A stretch of DNA of 64,000 nt from Bacteroidota bacterium (GTDB taxonomy: Bacteria > Bacteroidota > Bacteroidia > Chitinophagales > Chitinophagaceae). Position 1 is the first letter of the stretch. Every line of letters begins with the position of its first letter. The stretch covers positions 429,718 to 493,717 of the forward strand of contig VGFQ01000001.1 of NCBI GenBank assembly GCA_016868815.1, written 5' to 3'. This document shows positions 24,652-39,831 of this stretch, piece by piece. The position numbers and the translations under genes are program-made. Under the pieces are notes generated by a model that saw only the letters and a list, made by a program, of their open reading frames with translations, did no database searches and had not been told where the DNA came from.

Positions 24652-27054
24652 CTATCCGTTACGGAAGATCCTTTGTAAGAAACCCGCAGGCTTCTTCGAC
24701 TTCTTTCGCTTGTCTTTATCAAAGTAATCTTTTCCGTAGCCATAACCATAGTTGCCATACCCATAGCCACCATAACCATAGTAGGAGCCATAGCTGCCTG
24801 CCTGGGCTTGAATGTCATTCAATAGGATCGAAAGGCGAGGCAATCGCTTGGAGCTGTAAATCTCATCCATCAACTGCAGCTGTTTACGATATGTATAGTT
24901 ATGCCGGACCACATACAAACTCACGTCTGCATGTTTCCCGATGACCATTGCATCACTCACCAGTCCTACAGGGGCCGTATCAATAACCACTGCCTCATAG
25001 TGATCTTTGATTTTTTGGAGAAAAGCATTCAGCCGGTCATCCAACAGCAGTTCGGATGGGTTGGGCGGGATTGGACCGCAAGGAATCACATCCAGATTTT
25101 CAATCCCGGGCACAGGCACTATCAGATCTTCGAATGGAATGCTGCCAATGATATAGTTGGTGACTCCCTTCTGCTTGGTCATCCCGAGACCACTAAGAAT
25201 CTTAGGCTTTCGAATATCAAATTCCAAGATCGCAGTTTTCTTTCCAGACAACGCAATGACGGCACCTACGTTCGTGGCAATAAAGGATTTACCTTCTCCG
25301 CTGGTTGATGAGGTTACCAGCACGACAATCTTATCTTTCTCTGGGATGATGTACTGAAGGTTGGTACGGATGATTTTAAACTGTTCAGAAATGAATTTGC
25401 GACTCGAGGCCCTGACGACCAGGGCCTCCCCGATCGCGGAATGACCTATCTCTCCAATGATCGGAGCCTGGGTGCTACTGACCACATCCTGACGGCTACG
25501 TACCTTATCATTGAGGTATTCCATCAAAAAGGCTACAAATGCAGGAATACCAAGTCCGATGAGCACAGCAAGCATGTAAGTACCCTGCCGGTTAGGCCGG
25601 ATCGGCAACTGGGATGAGCTTGCAGGCTCCAACACGACCACGTTGGAGACGGTGGCTGCAGAACTGATGGCTGTCTCAAGCTTTTTCTCCAAAAGAATCT
25701 GATAAAGTCCTTCCAATATCTTCTGCCTCCGTGTGATCTCAATTAGCTCCCTTTGCTGCTCCGGCATTCGAGACATAATCCTATTGGCTGAATTATTCCT
25801 TTCCTTAAGACTTTCTACACCGATCCCGTAGCCTTGTTTGACATTTTGCAGATTTTGAAGGATGTCTTGCCGTAGCTTCTCAATCGCCGTTTCCAGAGAA
25901 ATCATCATAGGATTCGACCTCGGCGTTGTCGGCAACATTGTGGCACGCTGCACCTGTAGCTTGTTGAATTCCATGATCTGACTCGCCAGAGTGGGCTCCT
26001 CCACCGACAACATGCTTCCTACCTGACGATATGGGTTCTTCGTATCACTGATATAGCTAATCAGATTATCTACAAGCTGCAGCTGAATGGACCGGGCTGT
26101 AATCTCTTCCTCCAGGTCTTTGAGGGCACTGATCATCGTCTGAGACTGCGACTCGGGGTCTAGCAACAGGTTCCTTTGCCTAAAATTCTTGAGATCCTTC
26201 TCGACAAAACTCAGCTCTTTGGTGGCAGCATTTAGTTGCTCATCAATGAAATCAAGCGCATATGTATTTGATTTCTTCTTCTCATCAAAGCCCGACTTTT
26301 GATACTCTGCCATCCATTGATTTAAGATATCCACACCCAGCCCGGGCGCCTCTATTTCAAGTATGAGCCGCATGATGTTTGTAGACTCGCCGGAAGGCAA
26401 GGCATTTAGGTATGAAAGCATCTCCTGGCCGCGCTCAGGAATACTCGCATAGGTGACAAGAAACTCGTTGGTGACATAGTTTTTAAGGGATATGGGCTTT
26501 CGCAAAATCAAAAACTTACCCCTCTCTGTGGTAAATGGCTCATTGAATTTCTGGATCTTCCCCTTCTCACCGAACTGAAAGCGCTCTTCGTCAAGGACAT
26601 TGATATTTAAATCGAACTTTTTCAGCGTGTCGGGTAATTCCAAGATCTGCATTCTGAAGGGAGACTCAGAAGGGTTTATCATGCTGGTGAGAATGCTCCC
26701 TTTATTGAAATACAGGAGTTGCAGTCCCAGCGACTTCACTACCCGCATCGCAATATGACTAGTCTTGATCACCTGAATCTCATCATTAATATTCTTTTCT
26801 GATGTATTGAAGAGCATTTCTTCAATCTTGTCAGATTTCATCCTTCCTTCATCAGGCTCACGAACCATCATCGTGCTGTTCACTGCATAAATCTTGTGCT
26901 CATACCGTAACTTGACATAGGAAAATACCAGACTTAGTATCAACGACAAAATAATCCAGGGGGCATAGGGAACGTAGCGAAAAAAAACCTCCCGCGGGGA
27001 TACCCCTTGAGTGGAGACATGCTGCTCGAAGGCGGTTGCTTTTCCCAAACTCAT
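24652..27054 (-). CDS. wzc: Polysaccharide co-polymerase with bacterial tyrosine kinase (Wzc type)
   Basis: The 800-residue protein has a membrane segment near 35-50, a large Wzz-like periplasmic domain with coiled coil (about 60-500), a second membrane helix near 505-525, and a cytoplasmic BY-kinase. The kinase has Walker A SSTSGEGKSFIATN near 595, a Walker A' (ILEFDIRKPK) near 620 and Walker B VVIDTAPVGL near 700. The tail is a tyrosine cluster (GSYGSYYGYGGYGYGNYGYG) near residues 758-780, the usual autophosphorylation site, followed by a lysine-rich end. It controls chain length and export through Wza. The first codons overlap the wza stop by four bases. Confidence 0.92.
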   Translation of the reverse strand: MSLGKATAFEQHVSTQGVSPREVFFRYVPYAPWIILSLILSLVFSYVKLRYEHKIYAVNSTMMVREPDEGRMKSDKIEEMLFNTSEKNINDEIQVIKTSHIAMRVVKSLGLQLLYFNKGSILTSMINPSESPFRMQILELPDTLKKFDLNINVLDEERFQFGEKGKIQKFNEPFTTERGKFLILRKPISLKNYVTNEFLVTYASIPERGQEMLSYLNALPSGESTNIMRLILEIEAPGLGVDILNQWMAEYQKSGFDEKKKSNTYALDFIDEQLNAATKELSFVEKDLKNFRQRNLLLDPESQSQTMISALKDLEEEITARSIQLQLVDNLISYISDTKNPYRQVGSMLSVEEPTLASQIMEFNKLQVQRATMLPTTPRSNPMMISLETAIEKLRQDILQNLQNVKQGYGIGVESLKERNNSANRIMSRMPEQQRELIEITRRQKILEGLYQILLEKKLETAISSAATVSNVVVLEPASSSQLPIRPNRQGTYMLAVLIGLGIPAFVAFLMEYLNDKVRSRQDVVSSTQAPIIGEIGHSAIGEALVVRASSRKFISEQFKIIRTNLQYIIPEKDKIVVLVTSSTSGEGKSFIATNVGAVIALSGKKTAILEFDIRKPKILSGLGMTKQKGVTNYIIGSIPFEDLIVPVPGIENLDVIPCGPIPPNPSELLLDDRLNAFLQKIKDHYEAVVIDTAPVGLVSDAMVIGKHADVSLYVVRHNYTYRKQLQLMDEIYSSKRLPRLSILLNDIQAQAGSYGSYYGYGGYGYGNYGYGYGKDYFDKDKRKKSKKPAGFLQRIFRNG

Positions 27055-31693: not shown

Positions 31694-31877
31694 ACCTGGC
31701 CTTGTTAGGGAAAATGGGATGTAAGGCTTGCTATTATCCAAACACCCAGTTCGCTATGCTCAGATAGTGCCTGGGCTTGCCCTCACAAAATAGTGCTCAA
31801 AAATGTGCCATCAAAGTACCCCATAGGTAAACTTTTGGCAGGGGATGCTGTATCTTACCACTCCAGACCATCGATCC

Positions 31878-33026
31878 ATGGATAAACGGTTCCTATCCTT
31901 AGACGTCTTCAGGGGTGCGACAGTTGCCTTGATGATCCTGGTCAACAACCCAGGAAGCTGGTCGCACCTGTATAGTCCCCTGGCCCATGCCCCTTGGCAT
32001 GGGGCAACACCTACAGACCTGGTCTTTCCGTTCTTCTTATTTGCCGTAGGCAATGCCATGGCCTTTGTGCTGCCCCGCTATGACCGAACTTCCAGCTCCG
32101 CCTTCTGGTCGAAGGTCGGCTGGCGCAGCTTTCTGATTTTTCTGATCGGGCTGACGCTGAATGCATTTCCTTTTGTCCGGTATGATGCAGAGGGGCAGCT
32201 GGTAGCCAAGTCCTTTGCTACGCTTCGTACTCTGGGGGTCCTGCAACGCATCGCCCTCTGCTACATCATAGCTGCTGCCTTCATCCGACTGCTGGGTGAT
32301 AAAGGGTCGGCCTATGCCGCAGCCCTCATACTGCTCATATACTGGGCACTCTGCCAGTCCCTCGGAGCGCCGGGAGACCCCTATAGTCTCGAAGGCTGGT
32401 TCGGTACTGGCATCGACAAAGCCTTGCTGGGAGAAAAACACCTGTATCGGGGCGAGGGTGTCCCCTTCGACCCCGAAGGCCTAGTGAGCACCCTACCCGC
32501 CGTCGTACAGGTCGTCATCGGGTACCTTGCCGGCCAATACATCCTCCAAAAAGGGCTGCAGTGGGAGATGTTGGCAACCCTTATGGCCATGGCGTTGCTG
32601 CTGATCCTTGCCGGCCTTTGCTGGAATATGAGTTTCCCGATCAATAAAAAAATATGGACAAGCTCCTATGTATTATACACCAGTGGCCTGGCGCTGGCAA
32701 CCCTCGGCATGGCCATCTGGCATATAGAGTTCCGACATAAGGGCGGCCGCTGGTGTCAGTTCTTCCTGCCTTTCGGAAGAAACCCCCTACTCATCTTTGT
32801 TCTGAGCGGAGTGGTCGCCAAAACTTATGGACTCTTTCGCATCTCCGACGTAGACAGCCAGGGGGCGCCACTTTTCCGAAGCCTCGGCGCCTGGATGTAT
32901 GAACACTTCTTCTCGCCTGCCTTTGGAGTCCTGAACGGTTCGCTGATGTATGCCATCGCCCATATCCTCCTTTTTTGGGCCATCAGTTACTGGCTAGACC
33001 TTAAGAAGATCTACCTCCGCGTATAA
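31878..33026 (+). CDS. NagX/HGSNAT-like membrane acyltransferase (copy 1)
   Basis: The ATG at 31878 (MDKRFLSLDVFRGATVALMI) is preferred over an upstream in-frame codon at 31845 because the family begins with this RxxxLDxxRG segment. The 382-residue protein has about ten membrane helices. It carries HAPWHGATPTDLVFPFFLF near 42-60, the histidine-bearing motif of heparan-alpha-glucosaminide N-acetyltransferase relatives. Later motifs are FGRNPLLIFVLSG near 310 and a C-terminal DLKKIYLRV. The family is thought to transfer acetyl groups to amino sugars across the membrane; in bacteria it often accompanies glycan-use genes. A paralogue lies at 37917. The stop codon TAA is also the start of a TAACTTTA box before galM. 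Confidence 0.85.
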   Translation: MDKRFLSLDVFRGATVALMILVNNPGSWSHLYSPLAHAPWHGATPTDLVFPFFLFAVGNAMAFVLPRYDRTSSSAFWSKVGWRSFLIFLIGLTLNAFPFVRYDAEGQLVAKSFATLRTLGVLQRIALCYIIAAAFIRLLGDKGSAYAAALILLIYWALCQSLGAPGDPYSLEGWFGTGIDKALLGEKHLYRGEGVPFDPEGLVSTLPAVVQVVIGYLAGQYILQKGLQWEMLATLMAMALLLILAGLCWNMSFPINKKIWTSSYVLYTSGLALATLGMAIWHIEFRHKGGRWCQFFLPFGRNPLLIFVLSGVVAKTYGLFRISDVDSQGAPLFRSLGAWMYEHFFSPAFGVLNGSLMYAIAHILLFWAISYWLDLKKIYLRV

Positions 33027-35011: not shown

Positions 35012-36313
35012 TCATCCCACTTCCACGATCTCCTGCCAACGGGTGGTGTAACGCTGGCTACGCTTCTCTTGCCGCATCTTCCAATTCCGCGTCAGGCCGG
35101 AGGCCAGGTATTTGACCATGTCGTCGCGCATGCTCACATTGAGGTTGTCGATCGCCTGCATAAGCATCCGATGGCGGAGGTCCGGGGCTTGGGAGGCAAA
35201 GAGGTTGCCCTGAACGGGATCATCCGGCACCAGGCCACCGAGGATGACGCCCGCCTTCAGGTAGCGACGGCCCAGATGAAAGAGCTGGTCCACTAGGGGA
35301 AGGGCGTGGCGCATGAGCTCGTGGGTGACGGAGGTCGGTATGGGCAAGACGGCACAGCGATGGTCGCTGCGCGGATCGTAGTCATACTGCCCGGGACCAT
35401 CCCCGCTCGTAACGGCGAACACGCCGATCGAGCTGGCCGCCGAGCCCTGGCGCCTGAGTTTCTCCGCTGCACGGGCGACATAGGTAGCGACCGCCTCCCG
35501 AAGGGGTTCCAGGTCAAAGACCGGCCGGCCAAACATCCGCGTCGTGGCAATCGTCTTCTTGATGTCGAGGGGATCTTTCATGGTGATGGAGGCCTCGCCC
35601 CGCAACTCCCGGATCAGTCGGACTCCGACGACACCCCCCAGGTGCCGGCGGGCCCATTCCTCCGGCATCTGCCGTAACTGCCAGGCTGTCTCAATGCCAT
35701 ACTGCTCCCGCAGGCGGGCGGCATAGCGGCGCCCAATCCCCCAGATGTCGGCTACGGCCGTGCGTGACAGGGCCTCTTGCAAAGCCTCTTCCGTGTTGAG
35801 GACGACGATGCAGTCCGTCTTCCGTTTGTCTTTTTTCGCCAGACGGTTGGCCAGCTTGCTCAGGAGCTTTGTGGGAGCGACGCCCACCGATACCCGGATG
35901 CCCGTCCATCCCTCCACGGTATGGCGGAGGTGCAGCGAAAAATCCCGCAGCGCATGGGCAGGCAGGTGGGAGAGATCTAGGAAGGCCTCGTCGACCGAAT
36001 ACACTTCCACACGCCCTGACCGGCCATCGGCATCATCCATCACATGCCGGAGCGTATCCATCACCCGCATGCTCATGTCTCCATACAAATGGTAGTTAGA
36101 CGAGAAGACCGCCACCCGGTGGCGCTCCATCACGTCCCGACACTGATAATAAGGTACGGCCATATCCACCCCGAGCGCCTTGGCCTCGTCCGTCCGGGAG
36201 ATGATACAGCCATCGTTGTTGCTGAGCACCACCACCGGCCGTTCCCGCAAGTCTGGCCGGAAAAGCCGCTCACAGGAACAATAAAAGCTGTTGCAGTCGA
36301 CAATCCCCTTCAT
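35012..36313 (-). CDS. umuC: DNA polymerase V catalytic subunit, UmuC (Y-family)
   Basis: The ATG at 36313 (MKGIVDCNSFYCSCERLFRP) gives 433 residues and avoids overlap with umuD; longer frames add no homologous sequence. Y-family features are the first catalytic aspartate in IVDCNSFYCSCE near residue 6, SNNDGCIISR near 35, and the Asp-Glu pair in VEVYSVDEAFLDL near 100. Helix-hairpin-helix and little-finger regions follow, with IWGIGRRYAARL near 190. It performs translesion synthesis. Catalytic residues look intact, in contrast to its UmuD partner. It follows umuD by 25 bases. Confidence 0.92.
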   Translation of the reverse strand: MKGIVDCNSFYCSCERLFRPDLRERPVVVLSNNDGCIISRTDEAKALGVDMAVPYYQCRDVMERHRVAVFSSNYHLYGDMSMRVMDTLRHVMDDADGRSGRVEVYSVDEAFLDLSHLPAHALRDFSLHLRHTVEGWTGIRVSVGVAPTKLLSKLANRLAKKDKRKTDCIVVLNTEEALQEALSRTAVADIWGIGRRYAARLREQYGIETAWQLRQMPEEWARRHLGGVVGVRLIRELRGEASITMKDPLDIKKTIATTRMFGRPVFDLEPLREAVATYVARAAEKLRRQGSAASSIGVFAVTSGDGPGQYDYDPRSDHRCAVLPIPTSVTHELMRHALPLVDQLFHLGRRYLKAGVILGGLVPDDPVQGNLFASQAPDLRHRMLMQAIDNLNVSMRDDMVKYLASGLTRNWKMRQEKRSQRYTTRWQEIVEVG

Positions 36314-36338: not shown

Positions 36339-36770
36339 CTAGAGGGCATGTATCGCATAGGTGACCACCCCCCAGACCGAGAAGTCTGCCTCCGGATCAA
36401 TATCGATCGCGGCCAGGCGGGCCGTCTCCGGCACCAGCCGTACCCGGTTGAACCGCTGCTCGAGCCGGCGTATCAGCATCTCTCCGTTAAGGGTGGCGAT
36501 GACGACGCGGCCACTAACCGGTTTCAGGCTCCGATCCACCACCACTACGTCGCCATCGAAGATGCCGGCCCCAACCATCGCATCTCCCCGCACCCGCATG
36601 AAAAAGGTAGCTGGCTTGTTGCGTACCAACTGCTCATTCAGGTCGATGCCCCGTTCTGCATAGTCATCTGTCGCGGCTGTGAAACCGGTCGCCTCTGCCG
36701 TTCTGGCCTCCTGCTGCGTATACTGCCGGGTGCCGCGGTAGGCGGCCGGCTGAATTCCTTCACTGTCCAT
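36339..36770 (-). CDS. umuD: UmuD-like S24 protein lacking both catalytic residues
   Basis: The 143-residue protein aligns along its length with Escherichia coli UmuD (139 residues), for example DDYAERGIDLNEQLV against ADYVEQRIDLNQLLI. The nucleophile serine (Ser60, GDSM) is Ala64 here (RGDAMVGAG; codon GCG at 36579-36581). The general-base lysine (Lys97, EFTVKKL) is Arg101 (EMLIRRL; codon at 36468-36470). The cleavage site Cys-Gly is Thr28-Gly29. Self-cleavage to UmuD' therefore looks impossible by the known mechanism. The frame is intact and is followed by a normal umuC, so it is probably expressed. No helix-turn-helix is present, so it is not LexA. Confidence 0.88.
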   Translation of the reverse strand: MDSEGIQPAAYRGTRQYTQQEARTAEATGFTAATDDYAERGIDLNEQLVRNKPATFFMRVRGDAMVGAGIFDGDVVVVDRSLKPVSGRVVIATLNGEMLIRRLEQRFNRVRLVPETARLAAIDIDPEADFSVWGVVTYAIHAL

Positions 36771-36788: not shown

Positions 36789-36820
36789 CTAAAATATTTA
36801 GTATTTTGGATTCCAGCAAA
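36789..36820 (-). promoter_or_regulatory. Candidate umuDC promoter with overlapping inverted-repeat operator
   Basis: On the minus strand TTTG (36820-36817), a 20-base spacer and TATTTTAG (36796-36789) give a near-consensus Bacteroidota -33/-7 pair. The start of transcription would be about 12 bases before the ATG. The inverted repeat AAAATA-N5-TATTTT (36791-36807) overlaps the -7 box and spacer, the position expected for an SOS repressor site. The operator role is inference. Confidence 0.5.
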
Positions 36821-36980: not shown

Positions 36981-37838
36981 ATGACATTTACCAAAAACTT
37001 ACCCATGCCGCACAGCGAACCCAACGCCGCCACCATGATGGAAAGACTCCATATGGAGAACGACTTCATGAAGATGAAACTGATGCTGGAACACGGAGCC
37101 CGGTTCCAGAGAGGAGCCAGGGATAAAGGGCTAGACCCTGCCACAGAATTTGCCTTGCTCAAACAAGTCCTTGCCTTCGAAGAAGAACATCCCCCAGGCA
37201 GGCGGAAGACCGTCTTTGAGCAACTGGGGCGGCCGGCCGACATACGACCGGTGCATGAACTGGCCGATGGAGAGGTGGAAGAGGCCCTCTCGGCGTTGCA
37301 ACAGCGGCTTCAAAGAGGCGGCATCTATCTGTCGGCCTTGAGCAGCGATGTCGCCCCCCGGGAGCTCTACCGCTTCATCATGGAAGAGCTCATGCACGTA
37401 GAAATCTGCAGCGCCGAGGGACCGAGCAGGCATCGCTTTATATATGATGAGTTCCACCCGGAGCCCCGCCACCAGAACGCACGCACCGCTGTAGAACTAT
37501 GCATCCGCCTCATCTTACAGAAGCAGAACCTGCTGTATATGTTCCCTGCCGGTAGGCCGCTGCAGCTCAACCAGCACGAGCGCCTCGGCGAAACGGAATT
37601 CCGGCGCAAGGTATTCGACTTCAAGTCGCGGTACGAGGATATTGTCTCCGTCAAAGTCGAAGTGATACGCACCGAACTGCGCGACAGCCACTGCCGCATC
37701 ACCGGCACCCACGTCACTGGCCTATGCCTGGAAGGCCGATGCGACATGGTGAAAGACGGCTGGGAAGTTGCTTTCCGGCAGGGGCGGCATGGGGAATGGC
37801 TGATTGCAAGCGTGCAGATCAAAGGGATTGACCTGTGA
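36981..37838 (+). CDS. Conserved-looking protein of unknown function
   Basis: I do not recognise this 285-residue protein. It is soluble, with no signal peptide or membrane helix. The N-terminal third (about 20-110) is charged and helical; a middle part (RELYRFIMEELMHVEICSAE near 128-147) is followed by FIYDEFHPEPRHQN. The last 70 residues (VEVIRTELRDSHCRITGTHV, ending in WLIASVQIKGIDL) have the alternating pattern of a small beta-sheet domain, perhaps NTF2-like. The start ATG at 36981 or an internal ATG at 37005 are both possible. It faces away from umuD and precedes a NagX paralogue. Function is not assigned. Confidence 0.6.
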   Translation: MTFTKNLPMPHSEPNAATMMERLHMENDFMKMKLMLEHGARFQRGARDKGLDPATEFALLKQVLAFEEEHPPGRRKTVFEQLGRPADIRPVHELADGEVEEALSALQQRLQRGGIYLSALSSDVAPRELYRFIMEELMHVEICSAEGPSRHRFIYDEFHPEPRHQNARTAVELCIRLILQKQNLLYMFPAGRPLQLNQHERLGETEFRRKVFDFKSRYEDIVSVKVEVIRTELRDSHCRITGTHVTGLCLEGRCDMVKDGWEVAFRQGRHGEWLIASVQIKGIDL

Positions 37839-37916
37839 GAAAACGGATACCATCGCCCGCAGGCCTGTTGCCAGCCAGCCATCTGGAATTCCAGCCAGTT
37901 ACCTATATTGAAGGGT

Positions 37917-39038
37917 ATGAGCACATCTATAGACAAAAGACACCTGGCCCTGGATATTCTGAGGGGAATGACCGTTTGCTTCATGATCATTGTGAACAGC
38001 CCAGGGCCGGGGGCAACTCCATTCTCGCCGCTGGAACATGCAGCCTGGCATGGGTTCACACCGACAGACCTAGTCTTCCCGACCTTCCTGTTCGTCGTGG
38101 GAAATGCCATGGCCTTTACACTCCCCAGGATGCAGGGGCTGGGCAGCGGCGCCTTCCTGTTGAAAGTCATGTCCCGTACCCTCGTCATCTTCCTCCTTGG
38201 ATACCTGATGTATTGGTTCCCATTTGTCCGCCAGGGGGCCGATGGGGCATGGTCCCCCGCGCCTATCAGCCATACCCGAATCCTGGGTGTACTGCAGCGC
38301 ATCGCCCTCTGCTATGGCATCGCAGCTCTGCTCATCCGGTACCTGCCCGAATGCCAGCTTCGACGCACCGGCACGCTCCTGCTGTTGGGATACTGGGCAG
38401 CGCTGGCCTGGGGGGGAGACTATTCCATGACAGGCAATTTAGGGCACCAGCTGGACAAGACCGTGCTGGGCGAAAACCATCTCTACCATGGCGAAGGCGT
38501 TGCCTTCGACCCAGAAGGGTTGTTGAGCACGCTGCCCGCCGTGGTGAACGTACTCATCGGATACCTGGCAGGCATCTTCGTACGCCGACAGAGAGCGTCT
38601 TATGAGACCATCGCCCGCCTGGCCCTGGCAGGCGCAACCCTGGTGGCCGTCGCCTATGGCTGGAACAACCTGTTCCCGATCAATAAGAAACTGTGGACTA
38701 GCTCGTTTGTGCTCTACACCACGGGGCTTGACTTAATCATCCTGGCAGGACTCATCCAACGAACGGAGGTGTCGGCAGTACCTCGATGGACAAGGTTCTT
38801 CACCGTATTCGGTCGGAACCCACTGGCCATCTACCTGCTCTCCGAACTCCTACTCACCAGCCTGTGGACCATCCCTGCCCAGTCTGGCACCAACCTTTGT
38901 GAAAGCCTCAACGCCAGCTTCTTCCAACGCATCGCACCCGGCCCCTGGGGATCGTTCCTCTTTGCCCTATCCATGATGCTTTTTTGTTGGACTGTCGGGT
39001 GGGTGATGGACCGAAAGAAGATCTATTGGAAGGTATAG
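37917..39038 (+). CDS. NagX/HGSNAT-like membrane acyltransferase (copy 2)
   Basis: The ATG at 37917 (MSTSIDKRHLALDILRG) is chosen; the codon nine bases upstream is TTG. The 373-residue protein has about ten membrane helices. It has HAAWHGFTPTDLVFPTFLF near 43-61, LGVLQRIALCYGIAAL near 125, FDPEGLLSTLPAVVNVLIG near 200, FGRNPLAIYLLSE near 305 and a C-terminal DRKKIYWKV. It parallels copy 1 at 31878 throughout. Its role in moving acetyl groups onto amino sugars is inferred from the family. It follows the unknown protein by 78 bases. Confidence 0.85.
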   Translation: MSTSIDKRHLALDILRGMTVCFMIIVNSPGPGATPFSPLEHAAWHGFTPTDLVFPTFLFVVGNAMAFTLPRMQGLGSGAFLLKVMSRTLVIFLLGYLMYWFPFVRQGADGAWSPAPISHTRILGVLQRIALCYGIAALLIRYLPECQLRRTGTLLLLGYWAALAWGGDYSMTGNLGHQLDKTVLGENHLYHGEGVAFDPEGLLSTLPAVVNVLIGYLAGIFVRRQRASYETIARLALAGATLVAVAYGWNNLFPINKKLWTSSFVLYTTGLDLIILAGLIQRTEVSAVPRWTRFFTVFGRNPLAIYLLSELLLTSLWTIPAQSGTNLCESLNASFFQRIAPGPWGSFLFALSMMLFCWTVGWVMDRKKIYWKV

Positions 39039-39042
39039 GTGG

Positions 39043-39831
39043 TCAATCGGCCACGGCCGGCAACTCGGCATACTCGAAAGGCTCCGTTGGGTCGGACGCC
39101 TCTCGAAAATCTTTTCGGATGGTATAGGCATGCATCTGTTCTGAAGGGTACTGATAAGTGACCATCGTCCGAATGCGCTCCGCGGGCAGGCCATCCTGTA
39201 TCCATTCCCAGGCTAGGTCGTCGTTCAAGATCAACGGCATCCGCTTCCGGCGGTTATGGACCTGTTGCATGAGGGCATTGGCAGCCGTCGTGACCATCGT
39301 GAAAGTATCCATCGCCTCCCCCGTCTCACGGTCGGCCCAGGGCTGCCAGATGCCGGCTATAAAGAAATACTCCCTGTCTGGCAGCACGATGCGATAGGGA
39401 TAGGCCTTGTCCTTCTTCATCCCCGGAGCCGTATAATGCCGCCACTCATAAAAGCCGGAAGACAGCACCAGACAACGTCGGTGCAATGCCGCCTGCCGGT
39501 AGCTCACCTTATCGAGCATCTCCTCTCCAATGGCATTTAGCGTATTGCGCGGCAGATCCTTCCGGCCAGTCTTCGGGTTCAGGCCACCATGGCGGAAATG
39601 GTCCAGCTCCGTCCAGGTATGTATAAAAGAAGGAATCAACTCCCAGTGCATCGACGTCAAGACGACATCCTTGCCTCCGTCAATCGGCTTCAGGACGGGC
39701 CAACTGCCATAGGCAAAGCCACTCAGCAATGGGCGCTGCAAAGCTTCCGAAAACACACCGATCTCTATCTCCAGCTGCTTCAGGCGGATGTGTTGCGCAT
39801 AGTGTACATCGATGCCATTGTAAAAACACAT
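39043..39831 (-). CDS. SOS response-associated peptidase family protein (SRAP; HMCES/YedK-like)
   Basis: The 262-residue protein begins Met-Cys, and Cys2 is the residue that crosslinks to abasic sites in HMCES/YedK after Met removal. Further marks are PRNTLNAIGEEML near 107, the catalytic glutamate in LVLSSGFYEWRHY near 133 and the QVHNRRKRMPLIL segment near 202, which holds the active-site histidine. The protein shields abasic sites in single-stranded DNA. Its place 2.3 kb from umuDC suggests a small damage-response neighbourhood, though the two are not one operon. It converges on the NagX copy 2 gene with four bases between stops. Confidence 0.9.
   Translation of the reverse strand: MCFYNGIDVHYAQHIRLKQLEIEIGVFSEALQRPLLSGFAYGSWPVLKPIDGGKDVVLTSMHWELIPSFIHTWTELDHFRHGGLNPKTGRKDLPRNTLNAIGEEMLDKVSYRQAALHRRCLVLSSGFYEWRHYTAPGMKKDKAYPYRIVLPDREYFFIAGIWQPWADRETGEAMDTFTMVTTAANALMQQVHNRRKRMPLILNDDLAWEWIQDGLPAERIRTMVTYQYPSEQMHAYTIRKDFREASDPTEPFEYAELPAVAD

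Follow-up and report, generated by a model that had tools for sequence, protein, structure and literature searches.

A Chitinophagaceae clade of UmuD proteins without the Ser-Lys dyad, predicted to remain uncut, with an N-terminal arm that appears to serve UmuC

The umuDC locus

We analyzed a 64,000-nt stretch of DNA from a Bacteroidota bacterium of the family Chitinophagaceae (assembly GCA_016868815.1, contig VGFQ01000001.1, positions 429,718 to 493,717; hereafter, the window), which carries homologues of the DNA polymerase V (pol V) genes umuD and umuC. In Escherichia coli, by the textbook account, mutagenic pol V is held back by a gate, the self-cleavage of UmuD. A preliminary description of this locus had proposed that both self-cleavage residues of its UmuD are replaced by Ala and Arg, that the cleavage junction has become Thr-Gly, and that an intact umuC lies beside the gene. 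Alignment to E. coli UmuD confirmed the replacements at exactly the coordinates given (Table 1), the frame is open, and UmuC has D, D, and E at the active-site places. Residues 24 to 137 of the E. coli UmuD sequence used match PDB chain 8gmt, which has Ala at 97. The umuC start lies 25 nt past the umuD stop on the same strand, and the two genes form an operon.

The only Pfam domain found in the 143 amino acids (aa) of UmuD was Peptidase_S24 (PF00717; 79.7 bits), and the protein passed the NCBIfam UmuD model NF007621 with 129.1 bits (cutoff, 110). Its sequence matched E. coli UmuD' (E-value, 7.3e-21), and its modeled fold resembled that of UmuD' (1ay9; template modeling score, 0.92 on the target). 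The nucleophilic Ser and the basic Lys of an active S24 peptidase are both replaced, however, and Thr28-Gly29 is neither a Cys-Gly nor an Ala-Gly junction. From these residues, RecA-stimulated self-cleavage is predicted to be absent. The earlier statement that all else is preserved proved inexact: apart from the junction, TAAT stands in place of PSPA after it (GAAA in most of the clade described below), and the cognate UmuC is altered at its RecA-docking motif.

Table 1. Features of the umuDC locus and its surroundings, in window coordinates
Feature	Position	Strand	Remarks
umuD	36339-36770	-	143 aa; S24-fold pol V subunit without Ser-Lys dyad; open reading frame (ORF) open
N-terminal arm, residues 1-28	36687-36770	-	Motif Y11-x-G13-x-[KR]15-x3-Q19-x4-T24-A25-x-A27-T28
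Thr28-Gly29	36684-36689	-	Place of E. coli Cys24-Gly25 cleavage junction, by alignment
Ala64 codon	36579-36581	-	E. coli Ser60, by alignment
Arg101 codon	36468-36470	-	E. coli Lys97, by alignment
CTAA-N5-TTAG palindrome	36789-36801		Predicted operator; begins 31 bp upstream of umuD; reads CTAA-ATATT-TTAG
umuC	35012-36313	-	433-aa Y-family polymerase; IMS, IMS_C, DUF4113; active-site D, D, E present
UmuC residues 384-403	35105-35164	-	RecA-NT (RecA-docking) motif region (motif per PMC6511836); LMQAIDNLNVSMRDDMVKYL
UmuC Arg396	35126-35128	-	At the motif glycine, by alignment; match to motif by eye
UmuC Met260	35534-35536	-	Ser in 91% of canonical UmuCs; Met in 94% of 17 f23/Balneolaceae UmuCs
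Second CTAA-N5-TTAG palindrome	25193-25205		CTAAGAATCTTAG
SRAP gene	39043-39831	-	SOS response associated peptidase, PF02586
285-aa ORF	36981-37838	+	Divergent from umuD
Membrane-protein-like ORF	31845-33026	+	MDKRFLSLDVFRG
Membrane-protein-like ORF	37908-39038	+	IDKRHLALDILRG

The residue changes are fixed in a clade

UmuD residues were read at 257 loci, two of which (L001 and L083) are both the window. In a survey of 147 genomes of the family, 90 had a match at an E-value of 1e-8 (106 matches, 103 of them read). A survey of 296 genomes of the phylum gave a match in 186; the 72 loci read outside the family were hand-chosen, 20 of them taken from one group, f23, as unusual-looking, and the counts of UmuD kinds given below are therefore not phylum frequencies. 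We use the term clade A for 141 unique sequences, defined by an identity of 46% or more together with Arg in place of Lys, and canonical for UmuDs with Ser and Lys (n = 71, including L118, L119, L126, L133, and L210, which have Lys and 46 to 49% partial identity). Because Arg in 141/141 clade A members is partly by construction, we relied on a set of nearest relatives without a residue filter and on a tree that omits the columns concerned.

In the query and its 120 nearest proteins, taken from 4,385 under the E-value limit, Ala and Arg were found together in 121/121 and the Thr-Gly junction in 119. The nearest genome loci (the best 80 of 152) all had Arg, with Ala (64), Ser (14), Thr (1), or Asn (1) at the Ser place. 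Most of the nearest relatives are labeled Chitinophagaceae, Chitinophagales, or plain Bacteroidetes, and the isolates include Niastella, Puia, and Flavihumibacter. When the Ser, Lys, and P1 columns were removed, the tree (104 rows and 120 columns, with many forks unresolved) grouped the 36 clade A rows in a single clade (100/100) that contained no row with Lys, and the UmuC tree agreed with it. The ratio of nonsynonymous to synonymous substitution rates (dN/dS) for umuD was 0.059 to 0.099 against five near relatives, with synonymous sites near saturation in some pairs; the gene is under purifying selection. The residues of the relatives and the low dN/dS rule out recent decay or a sequencing error, in which this genome alone would have changed among Ser/Lys relatives. 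Loss of the dyad is a clade trait, and the earlier claim that this UmuD should not cleave itself is supported.

Clade A UmuD is present in 73/147 sampled genomes of the family. Its junction is TG in 131 of the unique sequences, NG in 6, SG in 2, and PG and QG in 1 each, and the Ser place holds A in 120, S in 17, T in 3, and N in 1. We infer that Lys was replaced by Arg first and that Ser then drifted, mostly to Ala. It could be argued that these proteins still cleave themselves, with Arg101 as the base or with another nucleophile, given the members that keep Ser and the slow cutting at high pH of a LexA whose Lys is changed to Arg. This seems very improbable to us, since Ala occupies the nucleophile place in most of the clade, the query included, and the junction is T-G, not A-G or C-G. 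A dual translation start that would yield UmuD' was also rejected: no start codon lies within five codons before or three codons after the junction Gly in 139/141 sequences.

Other UmuD kinds in the phylum

In canonical UmuDs, whose S and K define the group, the junction is AG in 68 cases, TG in 2, and AA in 1. In the 20 f23 UmuDs read (28 f23 genomes had a match), the junction was TG throughout, the Ser place held A (15), G (3), E (1), or D (1), and the Lys place R (19) or C (1). When one of these UmuDs served as the query of a protein search, the names returned included Balneola, Gracilimonas, and Balneolaceae; among the 120 relatives listed of 182, TG was found in 119 (one gapped), A in 113, S in 6, G in 1, and R in 120. 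Judged by these residues, the Balneolaceae hold a second clade of full-length UmuDs with a dead active site. In the UmuD tree the f23 rows stand elsewhere, among canonical rows, except for the long-branch row L238. In approximately unbiased (AU) tests, a single clade uniting clade A with f23 was not rejected (P = 0.348 for UmuD and 0.402 for UmuC), so that one origin and two origins are both compatible with the data. Most of the f23 UmuDs (L209, L212, L219 to L227, and L230 to L238) read ETGF[PV]SPA, their arm is not conserved, and their genes are without the CTAA-N5-TTAG palindrome; within 160 bp upstream of 15/20 there is an ATAT-N7-ATAT sequence, perhaps another operator, a count made without a control.

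Eleven loci fell outside clade A, the canonical group, and f23. Four of these (L178, L205, L218, and L252) have other losses, and seven are armless. The armless genes of the Chitinophagaceae start M-[GAL]FPSP; Arg replaces their Lys, and the Ser place is occupied by S, A, or N (L189, L192, L196, L200, L201, and L207, with L208 as a possible case); by their start, they encode UmuD' directly. A single origin of the armless genes gave P = 0.039 in an AU test, and they therefore probably have several origins. In five genomes (G058, G063, G068, G071, and G141), an armless umuD stands together with a clade A UmuD.

The N-terminal arm and its association with UmuC

In canonical UmuDs, the arm upstream of the junction is poorly conserved and background-like, which fits a piece that is removed. 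In clade A, a single residue prevails in 87 to 99% of sequences at each of arm positions 11, 13, 15, 19, 24, 25, and 27. Since clade A is the narrower group, pairs were matched by body identity, using a random sample of 4,000 of the 9,870 clade A pairs. At a body identity of 0.50 to 0.55, arm identity was 0.49 in clade A (432 pairs), 0.24 in canonical UmuDs (327 pairs), and 0.23 in f23 (9 pairs); at 0.55 to 0.60, it was 0.50 (972 pairs), 0.28 (175 pairs), and 0.28 (34 pairs), respectively. At 0.35 to 0.45, the clade A arm was less conserved, at 0.15 (29 pairs) versus 0.20 to 0.21. In AlphaFold2 models, the predicted local distance difference test (pLDDT) score was 41 to 49 for the clade A arm and 92 to 97 for the body (80 rows, 12 from outside clade A), versus 53 to 70 for the arm of the canonical control L183 (48 rows), in which short strands formed. 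The models thus give no sign that the clade A arm packs on its own body or active site, although a low pLDDT does not prove that the arm is free.

There are 74 genomes with clade A UmuD, 73 from the family sample and one from the phylum sample. A matching UmuC (at least 49% identity, a few partial) was found in 72, and their arm motifs scored 7 to 10 of 10, the 7 being due to masked sequence; in the two genomes without one (G104 and G108; best UmuC, 40% and 45%), the arm scored 2. The association was spotted after the fact in this pair, and 33 genomes of both genera were then examined. Four of them had already been counted, four had no match, one had a canonical-like match only, and 24 were new; match limits in the UmuD searches of the two genera had hinted at damaged arms before UmuC was searched for. 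Among the new genomes, 17 had a matching UmuC and arm scores of 8 to 10, and 7 had no UmuC at an E-value of 1e-30 and arm scores of 0 to 4. Over all 98 genomes, the arm was kept in 89/89 with a matching UmuC and decayed in 9/9 without one, with no exception. Some of the nine are incomplete assemblies, and the membership of one, G450, whose UmuD has 116 aa and Ile in the Ser position, is in doubt; without it there are eight. The arm therefore appears to exist for UmuC.

The rest of the gene persists without UmuC. All nine genes with a decayed arm (L267, L273, L288, L290 to L294, and L296) keep the CTAA-N5-TTAG box, and the eight bodies compared (G450 left out) are 51 to 83% identical, with a lower proportion of nonsynonymous (pN) than of synonymous (pS) differences. 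The persistence of body and operator suggests that the UmuD body has a use other than UmuC. The divergent gene adjoining the orphan umuD of L290 is 2'-5' RNA ligase-like (PF13563).

Of the three fates that the preliminary description had left open for UmuD (staying whole, being cut by another protease, or acting as a fixed partner), these data favor a whole protein that is a structural partner of UmuC. Removal of the arm by another protease, whether the LexA-like S24 protein in trans, a second UmuD, or an ATP-dependent protease, would also supply UmuD', by another route, and we consider it unlikely but worth weighing. The near-invariant T-G-F junction would suit such a protease, and decay of the arm after the loss of UmuC would be equally expected if the arm inhibits UmuC. 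McDonald reportedly described intermolecular cleavage by UmuD-like proteins in 1998, and a second UmuD, with Ser and Lys, is present in five of the 74 genomes. On the other hand, conservation spans residues 11 to 30 and thus extends beyond the junction, and a lineage in need of UmuD' could simply encode it in that form, as seen in the armless genes. The genome under study (92% complete) contains only two S24 proteins, UmuD and the LexA-like protein, whose own site is A-G by eye; no second Ser/Lys UmuD was found in it, which argues against processing by a second active UmuD there.

SOS control of transcription

The Bacteroidetes LexA-like (COG2932-type) repressor binds the operator CTAA-N5-TTAG and has umuDC in its regulon, and the Chitinophagaceae are among the families with large LexA-like regulons, according to passages of Sanchez-Osuna et al. 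2021 (PMC8565304). We found this palindrome within 250 bp upstream of umuD at 137/140 clade A loci (one of the 141 was dropped for short upstream sequence), 17/71 canonical loci, 0/20 f23 loci, and 4/7 armless loci, compared to 0.3 to 0.8% in shuffles (0.8% for clade A). The 2.85-Mb genome under study contains 7 such sites versus 32 for a reversed-pattern control; one lies before umuD, two before recA, and one before the LexA-like gene (L002). The latter encodes HTH_3 and S24 domains in an ORF called at 304 aa, its start being likely an ATG after the operator box. By eye, its product keeps GDSM, YKR, and an A-G site, so that the transcriptional switch looks intact.

As far as the operator and the repressor residues tell, transcription of umuDC thus still looks SOS controlled. 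With the operator and a Ser/Lys LexA-like protein both kept, only the posttranslational trigger looks lost, at odds with the earlier suggestion that this UmuD might act with no need for an SOS trigger. The window contains one further CTAA-N5-TTAG palindrome (Table 1); at least two were present in 7/100 window shuffles.

UmuC has lost the RecA-docking glycine

On the same strand and within 3.6 kb of umuD, umuC was found at 123/141 unique clade A loci, some of which are cut short. The active-site D, D, and E are intact in 120/120 clade A UmuCs measured. A RecA-NT motif of UmuC has been described (PMC6511836), and UmuC position 396 corresponds by eye to its glycine in our alignment. G was found there in 54/54 canonical UmuCs, encoded beside cleavable UmuDs, in 17/17 from f23, and in 6/6 accompanying armless genes; in clade A (n = 120), the position was R in 112, Q in 3, G in 2, K in 1, H in 1, and a gap in 1, i.e., the glycine is lost in 117/119 with a residue. 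RecA of the genome under study keeps DFGKGS.

Loss of this glycine could be taken to mean that uncut UmuD is a permanent brake that holds UmuC in a checkpoint or high-fidelity state, as full-length UmuD does in E. coli, and that pol V is not mutagenic in these bacteria. Uncleavable UmuD does lower mutagenesis in E. coli and leaves UmuC at the membrane, as reported in excerpts of PMC4552617 and PMC3901139. A polymerase that is permanently off should decay, however, whereas the active site is intact throughout and the SOS operator is kept; we think this explanation improbable, somewhat more so than cutting by another protease.

Position 260 of UmuC is the sole one with a residue common to clade A and f23 (Met, at least 80% in both) that occurs in no more than 15% of canonical UmuCs. 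By this rule, three positions unite clade A and canonical UmuCs against f23, and four unite canonical UmuCs and those of f23 against clade A. The Ser-to-Met change in both full-length dead clades may be a co-change with UmuD or reflect shared ancestry. At six loci (L152, L153, L163, L167, L169, and L174), a radical SAM gene (PF04055 in L153, the rest alike by eye) follows the clade A umuD, and the matching umuC is divergent, about 1 to 2 kb away, not downstream.

Proposed mechanism

We propose, with a probability of roughly 0.58, that clade A UmuD is not cut, since Ala and Arg replace the self-cleavage Ser and Lys, that its arm is a permanent UmuC-binding element of pol V rather than a removable inhibitor, and that SOS transcription is the main switch. 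DNA damage would give rise to RecA filaments, upon which the LexA-like S24 repressor, with its Ser and Lys in place, would cut itself; umuDC would then be transcribed, and full-length UmuD2 would assemble with UmuC at once, the uncut arm lying along UmuC. In E. coli, only the shortened arm of UmuD' has been modeled as inserted into UmuC, with one such arm between its palm and little finger (excerpts of PMC11791011), and the longer arm of clade A may similarly lie along its UmuC. A more far-reaching version, which we hold to be possible but somewhat doubtful, is a pol V, used by a large part of the family, that is free of RecA at both posttranslational steps and in which UmuD is never self-cleaved, the arm is a connector to UmuC, the RecA-docking motif has been rewritten from Gly to Arg, and the UmuD body has a UmuC-independent SOS role.

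Several observations weigh against an uncut UmuD with a UmuC-binding arm. The 17 clade A members that keep Ser, together with the residual cutting by the LexA Lys-to-Arg protein, leave some room for self-cleavage, and the Ser/Lys UmuD present in five genomes (G045, G087, G104, G108, and G135) could cut in trans. Conservation of the clade A arm does not exceed that of the arm of cleavable UmuDs at a body identity of at least 0.70, and in the comparisons with the five near relatives, the arm changes more rapidly than the body in every case for which both rates were obtained. The nine UmuC losses are confined to two genera and do not count as nine separate events. A UmuC-inhibiting arm that another protease removes would be compatible with arm conservation as well. 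Lastly, UV mutagenesis in E. coli is greatly lowered by S60A and strongly inhibited by K97A, which also keeps UmuC at the membrane, as stated in parts of PMC3901139, PMC5342242, and PMC4552617; clade A must therefore have bypassed the need for cleavage, if its pol V is active.

Relation to known systems

Clade A UmuD resembles E. coli UmuD/UmuD' in its S24 fold, NF007621 family, operon with umuC, and SOS-type operator and differs from it in the Ala/Arg pair, the T-G junction, the conserved arm tied to UmuC, and a UmuC without the RecA-NT glycine. Phage P1 HumD, a UmuD' homologue, is likewise a UmuD relative with no need for self-cleavage, but it starts MGFPSPA, is armless, and keeps S and K by eye, whereas clade A keeps the full arm without the dyad. 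Accordingly, UmuD of the window is not of the HumD type: it has a 28-residue arm and scored 67.4 bits with NF051876, below the cutoff of 120. The armless Chitinophagaceae copies listed above are HumD-like, except for Arg at the Lys place. UmuD3A (T14A L17A F18A), an engineered E. coli mimic of UmuD', is full length and uncleavable, with its arm freed from the body (excerpts of PMC5342242); its three laboratory-made substitutions lie in the arm and not the dyad, whereas clade A has a naturally occurring, conserved arm. UmuDAb of Acinetobacter is also a UmuD relative turned to another use, but clade A UmuD has only its 28-residue arm and no N-terminal DNA-binding domain of the UmuDAb type. The noncanonical Bacteroidetes LexA regulon shares the operator, the COG2932-type repressor, and umuDC as a member, and the excerpted text of its description (PMC8565304) does not comment on the catalytic residues in UmuDs of the Bacteroidetes. 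That paper was the only one found in the open-access literature to link UmuD with Chitinophaga or Balneola, and no natural full-length UmuD without the dyad and with a UmuC-tied arm was found there.

If our reading is correct, cleavage has been lost naturally in about half of the sampled genomes of the family (73/147), and the cleavage gate is dispensable; an inhibitory propeptide can turn into a working part, and a control step that E. coli needs has been removed. Cleavable UmuDs, uncleavable UmuDs with an arm, armless UmuDs, and UmuC-free UmuDs would provide a natural set for asking what UmuD cleavage is for. The database name "autoproteolytic subunit," given to proteins of the group (P0049, P0058, and P0070), is contradicted by their residues.

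Neighboring genes

The SRAP gene lies about 2.3 kb upstream of umuD, and SRAP-like ORFs (by eye) also lie upstream of the orphan umuD in L288, L290, L291, and L293. The 285-aa ORF, which had no Pfam or NCBIfam match, adjoins the same intergenic operator as umuD. Two similar membrane-protein-like ORFs flank umuDC and look like diverged duplicates.
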